From Cyclobacterium plantarum (lineage in GTDB: Bacteria; Bacteroidota; Bacteroidia; Cytophagales; Cyclobacteriaceae): a stretch of DNA of 64,000 bases. The stretch lies in assembly GCF_011290685.1 (NCBI RefSeq), contig NZ_JAANYN010000007.1, positions 1 through 64,000 of the forward strand, given 5' to 3'. The notes under the pieces are model-generated. The model worked only from the letters and a program-made list of their open reading frames with translations, did no database searches and had not been told where the DNA came from. Of the stretch, positions 63,564 through 64,000 are shown in pieces (the stretch's first letter is position 1; each line of letters opens with the position of its first letter). The translations under genes were made by a program, and so were the position numbers.

Positions 63564-63636
63564 CGCGGGATGGAGCAGTTGGTAGCTCGTTGGGCTCATA
63601 ACCCAAAGGTCACAGGTTCGAGTCCTGTTCCCGCTA
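63564..63636 (+). tRNA. Initiator tRNA-fMet (CAU)
   Basis: A full cloverleaf of 73 bases without an encoded CCA. The anticodon loop is CUCAUAA. Initiator hallmarks are present: an unpaired C1-U72 at the acceptor end, three G-C pairs closing the anticodon stem (GGG/CCC) and an A11-U24 pair in the D stem. The T arm is ACAGG-UUCGAGU-CCUGU. It is followed by a terminator and by tandem copies of its own 3' half. Confidence 0.95.
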
Positions 63637-63713
63637 CACTAGAAGGCACTGGAAACGGTGCCTTTTTTTATTTATAACCGAATTTATTCCGGGCTCATAT
63701 CCGCCGCGGCGGA
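63611..63713 (+). repeat. Tandem 103-bp repeat, unit A (starts inside tRNA-fMet)
   Basis: The unit runs from the T arm of the tRNA through its acceptor end, a terminator hairpin, an AT-rich spacer, the 9-base tRNA piece GGGCTCATA (63691-63699) and the palindrome TCCGCCGCGGCGGA (63700-63713). Unit B is identical but for two bases in the terminator loop region. Confidence 0.9.
63643..63669 (+). terminator. Terminator of tRNA-fMet
   Basis: AAGGCACTG (63643-63651) pairs with CGGTGCCTT (63656-63664) around a GAAA tetraloop, followed by a T-run. It lies six bases after the tRNA. Confidence 0.9.
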
Positions 63714-63739
63714 CACAGGTTCGAGTCCTGTTCCCGCTA
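63691..63739 (+). pseudogene. tRNA-fMet 3'-half remnant 1
   Basis: GGGCTCATA from the anticodon arm is joined through TCCGCCGCGGCGGA to the exact T arm and acceptor 3' strand of tRNA-fMet. The palindrome replaces the ten bases ACCCAAAGGT of the functional gene. The 5' half is missing, so it cannot make a tRNA. Confidence 0.85.
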
Positions 63740-63816
63740 CACTAGAAGGCACGGGAATCGGTGCCTTTTTTTATTTATAACCGAATTTATTCCGGGCTCA
63801 TATCCGCCGCGGCGGA
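63714..63816 (+). repeat. Tandem 103-bp repeat, unit B
   Basis: This is the second copy of the 103-bp unit with two substitutions relative to unit A, both in the terminator region. The near identity suggests recent duplication or gene conversion. A partial third copy begins at 63817 and keeps only the tRNA portion (to 63842-63844). Confidence 0.9.
63746..63772 (+). terminator. Terminator copy in unit B
   Basis: The stem AAGGCAC/GTGCCTT plus T-run is kept; the inner loop differs (GGGAATCG), which weakens the two inner pairs. Confidence 0.75.
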
Positions 63817-63842
63817 CACAGGTTCGAGTCCTGTTCCCGCTA
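63794..63842 (+). pseudogene. tRNA-fMet 3'-half remnant 2
   Basis: It has the same structure as remnant 1: GGGCTCATA (63794-63802), palindrome (63803-63816), then T arm and acceptor 3' strand ending CCCGCTA. After it the sequence departs from units A and B, with TGCGAGGGCAC in place of CTAGAAGGCAC. Confidence 0.85.
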
Positions 63843-63848
63843 CATGCG

Positions 63849-63876
63849 AGGGCACTGGAAACAGTGCCCTTTTTTT
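63849..63876 (+). terminator. Terminator after the last tRNA remnant
   Basis: AGGGCACTG (63849-63857), a GAAA loop and CAGTGCCCT (63862-63870) are followed by T residues. Compared with the first terminator, an A-T pair is G-C and a T-G wobble is T-A, so the stem is preserved by paired changes. Confidence 0.85.
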
Positions 63877-63891
63877 GTTATTTTTAATCCC

Positions 63892-64000
63892 ATGTTTACT
63901 GTTTATGCACTTTACAGTGAAAAATTCGATAAAATCTATATCGGATTTACTTCTAATCTTCAAAAACGCCTAATCTCACATAACGAGCTGGGTACAAAGG
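63892..64000 (+). CDS. GIY-YIG endonuclease family protein (5' part, cut by window end)
   Basis: Thirty-six codons are visible. VYALYS and KIYIGFTS form the GIY-YIG pair (residues 4-9 and 14-21), and R26 in NLQKRLISHN is the expected catalytic Arg. This matches the small single-domain GIY-YIG proteins of about 80-100 residues that are frequent in Bacteroidota. The start follows the last terminator by 15 bases. Its location right behind tRNA-fMet remnants suggests a link to mobility at tRNA 3' ends; the rest of the gene lies outside the window. Confidence 0.8.
   Translation, partial: MFTVYALYSEKFDKIYIGFTSNLQKRLISHNELGTK

Follow-up and report, generated by a model that had tools for sequence, protein, structure and literature searches.

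tRNA genes are known landing sites for integrases. In E. coli, the tyrT repeats (rtT RNA, tpr) are tandem 178-bp units behind a tRNA gene, each with a 19-bp tRNA end and with no known nuclease gene. SegB of phage T6 is a free-standing GIY-YIG homing endonuclease encoded beside tRNA genes; according to the parts of the published account drawn on here, its nuclease activity is required for the tandem amplification of tRNA-Tyr together with segB, the repeats collapse without selection, and its cuts include sites within tRNA genes (PMC13096335). Fungal mitochondrial mORFs are described for atp6 in Allomyces and for atp6, atp9, cox2 and nad3 in Glomus, in the portion of the source used here (PMC3630166). 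The titles and abstracts of the matches listed, in which subscription literature is thinly covered, describe neither GIY-YIG genes beside bacterial chromosomal tRNA genes nor palindrome-bearing tRNA copies.

The locus considered here lies at the end of the window, the 64,000-nt stretch of Cyclobacterium plantarum DNA that was analysed. The array behind its tRNA-fMet gene is probably (at a rough probability of 0.6) part of a free-standing, tRNA-specific GIY-YIG homing or amplifying cassette, with two 103-bp units as nuclease-less derivatives. Within the insert are terminators of its own, a conserved nuclease gene and palindrome-bearing partial tRNA copies, and this layout recurs at many Bacteroidota tRNA genes.

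The array behind the tRNA-fMet gene and its nuclease

The intact tRNA-Met(CAT) gene at 63564–63637 (+ strand), judged by its three G-C anticodon-stem pairs, is of the initiator type, and is the sole full-length fMet match in the 6.17-Mb genome. A putative tRNA promoter, TTGACA-18-AATAAT, lies at 63520–63549 on the same strand and matches 11 of 12 consensus positions; promoter-like sites in the region number 2 against 1.4 in shuffles, which supports it weakly. Two units of 103 bp follow on the + strand (63638–63740 and 63741–63843), with the same order of parts: terminator, AT-rich spacer, GGGCTCATA, palindrome, and T arm with 3′ acceptor strand. They differ at 2 of 103 positions, both within the terminator hairpin. 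Tandem Repeats Finder reports a period of 103, 2.6 copies and a score of 474, while two other arrays in the window score 51 and 52. The sequence-only reading had described two such units with two differences, a 14-bp palindrome in place of the 3′ side of the anticodon region, an exact T arm and acceptor 3′ strand, and a terminator of its own for each unit, all of which was borne out.

The + strand terminator hairpins lie at 63641–63666 (intact tRNA and unit 1) and 63744–63769 (unit 2), and a third is found at 63848–63871, 5′ of the GIY-YIG gene; they account for three of the five terminator-like matches in 63360–64000, where shuffles give a mean of 0.7. The partial tRNA copies (+ strand) begin with GGGCTCATA, the 5′ side of the anticodon arm, at 63691–63699 in unit 1 and 63794–63802 in unit 2; the same segment occurs at 63592 in the tRNA and at contig position 64147, just past the window. 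Next comes the 14-bp palindrome TCCGCCGCGGCGGA, to which no strand is assigned, at 63700–63713 and 63803–63816. It stands in place of the native 10-nt segment ACCCAAAGGT, tRNA nt 38–47. The T arm and 3′ acceptor strand (63714–63740 and 63817–63843, + strand) are identical over 27 nt, with exact copies starting at 63611, 63714 and 63817. Past the window, the array continues with the remainder of the GIY-YIG gene and a further decayed tRNA copy (contig 64147 onwards), followed from contig 64215 by the native terminator flank, where the stretch is ACACAAAACCCC.

The GIY-YIG nuclease gene runs from 63892 to contig 64140 on the + strand, beyond the window end at 64000, and its 82-aa ORF matches PF01541 with 60.8 bits against a cut-off of 22.6. 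Translation from an in-frame ATG 48 nt further upstream would yield a 98-aa protein, but relatives share the 82-aa start. No intron family was detected at E ≤ 1 in 63350–64000, and the gene is a stand-alone ORF. Residues Y5, Y16, G18, R26, H30 and E63, which we take to be the catalytic positions, are 98–100% conserved among tRNA-linked rows. The protein is under selection, with Ka/Ks of 0.06–0.20 among five Cyclobacterium nuclease genes, one of them truncated. Relatives at 81–91% nuclease identity are found in Cyclobacterium salsum, C. lianum and two further Cyclobacterium, and the nearest solved sequences are 1ywl (E 4e-4) and 1zg2 (E 0.003), with SLX1 matched weakly (E 0.06 and 0.2).

Empty and occupied alleles in Cyclobacterium

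The era–tRNA-fMet locus could be located in all 12 genomes of the genus. In five of them (G153, G174, G211, G224 and G266) a terminator with AACCCCTTATAC..GTATTTGGGGTTTT lies directly 3′ of the tRNA, and in G174 and G153 the tRNA-fMet gene runs straight into ACAAAACCCC..TATAC, the same flank that the window has after its last decayed copy. When the end of this last copy was aligned to the empty sites, the scores for G174, G153 and G224 were reached by 0 of 1000 shuffles; G211 exceeded the shuffled maximum narrowly (22 against 21), and G266, whose score was reached by 2 of 1000 shuffles, failed the empty-site test. Because the native terminator follows the last copy in the window but directly follows the tRNA in relatives with empty sites, the array and the nuclease gene together constitute an insert. 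Comparison of these alleles shows it to lie between the reconstituted tRNA-fMet 3′ end and the native terminator. Empty (G174, G153) and occupied (window) alleles of one locus thus both exist.

The nuclease gene, or a truncated form of it, is present at the locus in G000, G238, G123, G067 and G249, and in G195 it lies 46 kb from tRNA-fMet behind an island. G259, which was found via era, has the same terminator with one palindrome-bearing pseudo-copy upstream and no nuclease there. In G238 and G123, extra 5′ copies with promoter-side sequence occur upstream, and some of their D arms are also replaced by palindromes. The same array in a fixed form in distant relatives with no mobile gene nearby, named by the sequence-only reading as the case that would speak against it, was not seen; the arrays differ between the sister species G000 and G238. 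Of the 11 genomes of a second genus (g48), 9 match the nuclease in full or in part, and G245 and G169 have no match by profile; G245 nevertheless retains a palindrome-bearing copy, and no clean empty site was found among the 11. Nuclease-free arrays are likely under-represented, since most loci were found through the nuclease.

Cassette occupancy within Cyclobacterium broadly tracks era relatedness, which makes vertical descent with decay possible. Between G000 and G238, the nuclease genes have a Ks of 0.38 and a Ka of 0.075, compared with 0.14 and 0.003 for era and a Ks of 0.19 for der. Against G123, G195 and G067, the nuclease Ks values are 0.61, 0.39 and 0.50, and those of era are 1.86, 0.85 and 1.36. 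Because the nuclease Ks is discordant with era and der, and in both directions, exchange between species is suggested, although hidden paralogy and a lower synonymous rate could also produce this pattern. A mosaic test on the window's nuclease gene was not significant (609/10000; with two breakpoints, 97/1000).

Nuclease lineages, tRNA identity and the palindrome

When named genomes were scanned with the window's nuclease as query, 131 relatives were confirmed, of which the best 80 were kept. Among these best 80 of 131, 64 have a tRNA within 500 bp, which is tRNA-Met(CAT) in 58 and lies 5′ of the nuclease on the same strand in 63; no tRNA is present at 12 of the loci, several of which lie at contig ends. 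The host titles among the best 80 are mostly of Bacteroidota, with some Balneolota and three Cloacimonadota. A larger collection of 249 nuclease genes, most of them gathered by searching with three nuclease queries and hence not a random sample, splits into 148 that lie within 400 bp of an intact tRNA, 61 that have a tRNA fragment alone and 40 that have neither. The gene lies 3′ of the tRNA on the same strand in 133 of the 148, 5′ of it in 13 and on the opposite strand in 2.

A census not seeded with the window's nuclease drew on every GIY-YIG match in 26 genomes of the class; neither the window's genome nor a small number of short or partial matches was included. It comprised 51 small-protein loci, one of which (L248) has no nuclease by profile. 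A tRNA or tRNA fragment lies within 100 bp in 19 of the 51 and within 300 bp in 22; by eye the count is 21, and for this count Fisher's test against large-frame controls gives p = 0.0007. These controls, 17 of the large GIY-YIG frames in the census genomes, have a tRNA within 700 bp in no case (0/17) and one at about 900 bp. After deduplication, 79 Met loci remained, of which 56 are initiator-type and the others elongator- or Ile2-like under the label Met(cat). In 53 of the 79, a tRNA 3′ segment follows the nuclease gene within 170 nt on its 3′ side, against 2 of 73 control stretches, and 26 of the 79 lack a recognisable tRNA copy within that distance.

Nuclease lineages are tied to tRNA identity. 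A quick tree of 188 non-redundant rows, thinned within labels, holds 153 labelled rows with 15 tRNA states; tRNA identity changes 30 times on it, against a shuffled mean of 58.0 (minimum 54; 0/300). Without the Met rows, there are 25 changes against 42.8 shuffled (0/300), and the distinction between tRNA-linked and unlinked rows requires 11 changes against 32.6 (0/300). Part of this signal is inheritance, because related species share loci by descent; the Met lineage is nonetheless phylum-wide. Small GIY-YIG proteins of the UPF0213 type and SLX1 belong to the same domain family as the tRNA-linked nuclease. A putative UPF0213-like clade is separate in the tree and rarely found beside tRNAs (24 of 26 rows unlabelled). 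Close relatives of the fMet nuclease also occur outside Bacteroidota, beside tRNA-Asn(GTT) or its fragments, at L124, L125 and L064 (a Cloacimonadota MAG and a Candidatus Tenebribacter davisii MAG), and these tRNA-Asn(GTT) loci possibly represent a target switch between phyla.

The window's own genome holds further loci of this kind. Three nuclease genes beside tRNA-Arg(CCT) are each accompanied by a 5′ half of a tRNA and by the palindrome CCTGCCTGCCGGCAGGCAGG; another two, beside tRNA-Pro(GGG), come with a run of pseudo-tRNAs in which the anticodon arm is a palindrome. At L019, a nuclease gene appears by eye to be flanked by tRNA-like 3′ ends, where ARAGORN and the tRNA library marked none, and at L025 (about 3040–3207) a GIY-YIG-like stretch, judged by eye and apparently partial, follows tRNA-Asn(GTT).

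Arrays in other genomes are more extensive. At the tRNA-Asp locus of the single-contig genome G096 (L177 1–7501, C1:3224500–3232000), six upstream 78-bp 5′-half units and two intact tRNAs are followed by 14 tandem nuclease units, each about 346 bp long and containing a pseudo-tRNA. Behind tRNA-Met in G227, four 117-bp nuclease-less units accompany two nuclease units in a window-like design; nuclease-less units outside the window are seen at L188. In view of these arrays, the 103-bp units of the window are most simply explained as nuclease-less array members. Palindrome-bearing pseudo-tRNAs also constitute an annotation hazard: ARAGORN calls a palindrome-bearing pseudo-tRNA-Met at L180 798–878 a tRNA-SeC(TCA), and enters three undetermined tRNAs (L041 1015–1094, L041 1406–1483 and L130 1214–1291).

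Extra copies at Met loci were counted where both an anticodon part and a T arm were present, giving 111 copies at 66 loci. In 96 of these, at 61 loci, a perfect palindrome with arms of at least 6 bp replaces the 10-nt segment, a perfection slightly favoured by the method because the count takes the best-fitting arms; one of the 96 extends into a run of N. The other 15 comprise 7 intact extra tRNAs and 8 near or broken palindromes. Nearly all of the 96 palindromes (94) start with TCCG and end with CGGA. The next arm pairs vary in a compensatory manner, pair 5 being C-G in 89 and T-A in 7, and pair 6 C-G in 86, T-A in 9 and A-T in 1, and the centre is variable, with 27 loop types. At other tRNAs, a palindrome with different arms commonly stands in place of nt 28–44 or nearby. 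The arms are TGGCGC at Pro(TGG) (9/9), mostly TCCCGA or TCCCGC at Ala, Val, Asp and Asn, and CCTGCC at Arg(CCT) (5/7), where the palindrome is mostly inserted rather than substituted. Palindromes were also seen in the D-loop or T-loop region of pseudo-tRNAs at L132, L133, L135, L109 and L247, sometimes several per copy.

The palindrome is in addition dispersed in the window's genome, at 18 places by a looser pattern and 16 by the exact one, with controls at 1 and 0; the same kind of palindrome is dispersed at low number in 35 of 59 genomes. Of 14 exact places outside the array, 13 were inspected (L004–L016), and no tRNA-like flanks were seen by eye in these 13. The dispersed TCCGCCGCGGCGGA sequences form composite elements with CCC and GGG on the two sides in 11 of 13, and often adjoin palindromes of the CCTGAC/CCCGAC type. 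That the palindrome is a randomly dispersed repeat was considered and rejected, its placement inside pseudo-tRNAs being too regular for chance insertion.

Possible origins and described counterparts

As a tRNA-specific cassette, the nuclease would cut the matching tRNA gene close to where the copies carry the palindrome instead of the native segment (nt 38–47 in fMet). Repair templated by a cassette-bearing chromosome would then copy the terminator, the nuclease gene and a partial tRNA to a position downstream of a restored tRNA; because repair is proposed to restore the tRNA, the cassette could land in an essential gene without destroying it. Units would subsequently be gained or lost by unequal exchange between the repeated tRNA segments, and the two 103-bp units may have arisen as nuclease-less derivatives of cassette units. 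Both cutting and transfer are inferred. Several observations count against the cassette reading: the intact tRNA of an occupied locus still holds the presumed target, which raises the matter of self-protection; palindrome-bearing copies occur without a nuclease, as in G259; 26 of 79 Met loci show no recognisable copy nearby; and the empty-site comparison was passed narrowly by G211 and failed by G266. For the palindrome, the favoured interpretation is that it protects the copies from the nuclease or serves as a binding hairpin; alternatively, it may stabilise the insert by lowering its homology with the intact gene. A wider generalisation is offered tentatively, and we consider it possible rather than probable: selfish GIY-YIG cassettes across Bacteroidota, one lineage per tRNA gene, would cut the anticodon-arm region, restore the tRNA and tag their own copies with a lineage-specific perfect palindrome acting as an immunity tag or nuclease-binding hairpin.

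Local amplification by a host-domesticated nuclease appears rather unlikely as an alternative. The nuclease would no longer home but would promote tandem duplication at its own tRNA, with vertical inheritance and the partial copies as by-products. Over 26 nt, the tRNA remnants match their own tRNA exactly at 37 of 53 loci, and 0 of 53 are closer to the tRNA of another locus; this result would fit local duplication at least as well as import, and is compatible with the recent events or gene conversion that the exact T arm had first suggested. Arrays that reach 14 units, the SegB precedent for amplification and the roughly clade-like occupancy in Cyclobacterium point the same way. An amplifier is at odds, however, with the 104 of 111 extra Met copies that are not intact: because most are pseudo-copies with a destroyed anticodon region, tRNA dosage hardly rises. 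The existence of uninterrupted sites in the genus, and the departure of nuclease divergence from that of its neighbours in both directions, also speak against it. The array is far less likely to be an assembly artefact or a simple slippage array of no wider meaning, a reading that is scarcely credible. It does sit inside a 306-kb contig of a draft assembly of 37 contigs, so the unit count may be collapsed, but similar arrays are present in the single-contig genomes G096 (L177) and G255 (L181), the same layout is found phylum-wide, and the units differ at fixed positions.

It is improbable that the units are scars that a conventional phage or ICE integrase left at the tRNA 3′ end while the GIY-YIG gene travelled as a passenger. 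In favour of such scars, a 46-kb island at the same tRNA-fMet in G195 (L061/L176, L142; C22 about 140884–187151), open at the locus end, carries a tyrosine-recombinase-type gene (Arm-DNA-bind_5, Phage_int_SAM_5) and repeats the tRNA 3′ segment. This island stands between the tRNA and a GIY-YIG gene, and seems to be a separate event. In the window's contig, no integrase gene was recognised from the tRNA to the last copy; the GIY-YIG gene is the only recognised one, and the remaining ORFs of at least 40 aa are 40–70 aa long. Palindrome-bearing copies usually lie beside the nuclease gene (in loci mostly found through the nuclease), and 5′-half copies occur too. Integrase scars were consequently rejected as the main account, the insert having no recognised integrase and the G195 island being apparently separate. 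The capture or excision scars proposed in the sequence-only reading stand in so far as they are remnants of insertion or recombination, with native flank beyond the insert; a conventional integrating element is not supported, none having been recognised. A phage or plasmid passenger was likewise rejected, as nuclease matches at E ≤ 0.001 occur in 1 of 50,697 phage records and 2 of 72,556 plasmid records. Two partial nuclease loci were seen in viral contigs. It is very improbable, finally, that the pseudo-tRNA units are functional RNAs, acting as decoys or as antisense to tRNA-cleaving enzymes, beside an incidental nuclease. A terminator for each unit and compensatory changes in the hairpin arms would be in keeping with such a role, but in the Rfam scan tRNA alone passes its gathering score and the units have no known RNA match. 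Because they lack the 5′ acceptor strand and D arm, no tRNA-like fold is expected of the window's units, and an incidental nuclease is unlikely because the census links small GIY-YIG genes with tRNAs.

If the cassette reading is correct, nuclease cassettes on bacterial chromosomal tRNA genes would represent a second, far smaller way to exploit tRNA genes. The hairpin in place of the anticodon region, found in about a hundred copies (96 at Met, more at other tRNAs), provides a directly testable rule.

The window units fit the tyrT-type repeats superficially, each having a tRNA 3′ end and no nuclease, but they adjoin a nuclease unit. The fungal mORF is the nearest anatomical match, as far as the consulted parts of its description extend: an endonuclease ORF is inserted into an essential gene, which regains its 3′ end, and the original end persists downstream as a duplicate (PMC3630166). 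The corresponding features here are the native flank after the last copy and the 3′ segment after the nuclease at most Met loci. The restored 3′ end of mORFs was judged foreign, whereas the copies described here match the resident tRNA; mORFs also sit in organelle protein genes, and those parts of the source describe neither a palindrome nor tandem arrays (PMC3630166). SegB resembles the present system as a small GIY-YIG nuclease beside tRNAs with tandem repeats of tRNA and nuclease, and the complement of its reported motif RAWTSGAAC (PMC13096335) reads to us as T-arm-like. It differs in being a phage gene for which no tRNA isotype preference is reported, where the lineages described here follow tRNA identity, and palindrome-substituted partial tRNA copies do not feature in the sections of the report drawn on; cutting was demonstrated for SegB and is predicted here (PMC13096335). 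Within the same sections, SegB is the nearest demonstrated mechanism, and the cassette, if the present reading holds, would be a chromosomal counterpart of the phage SegB system.
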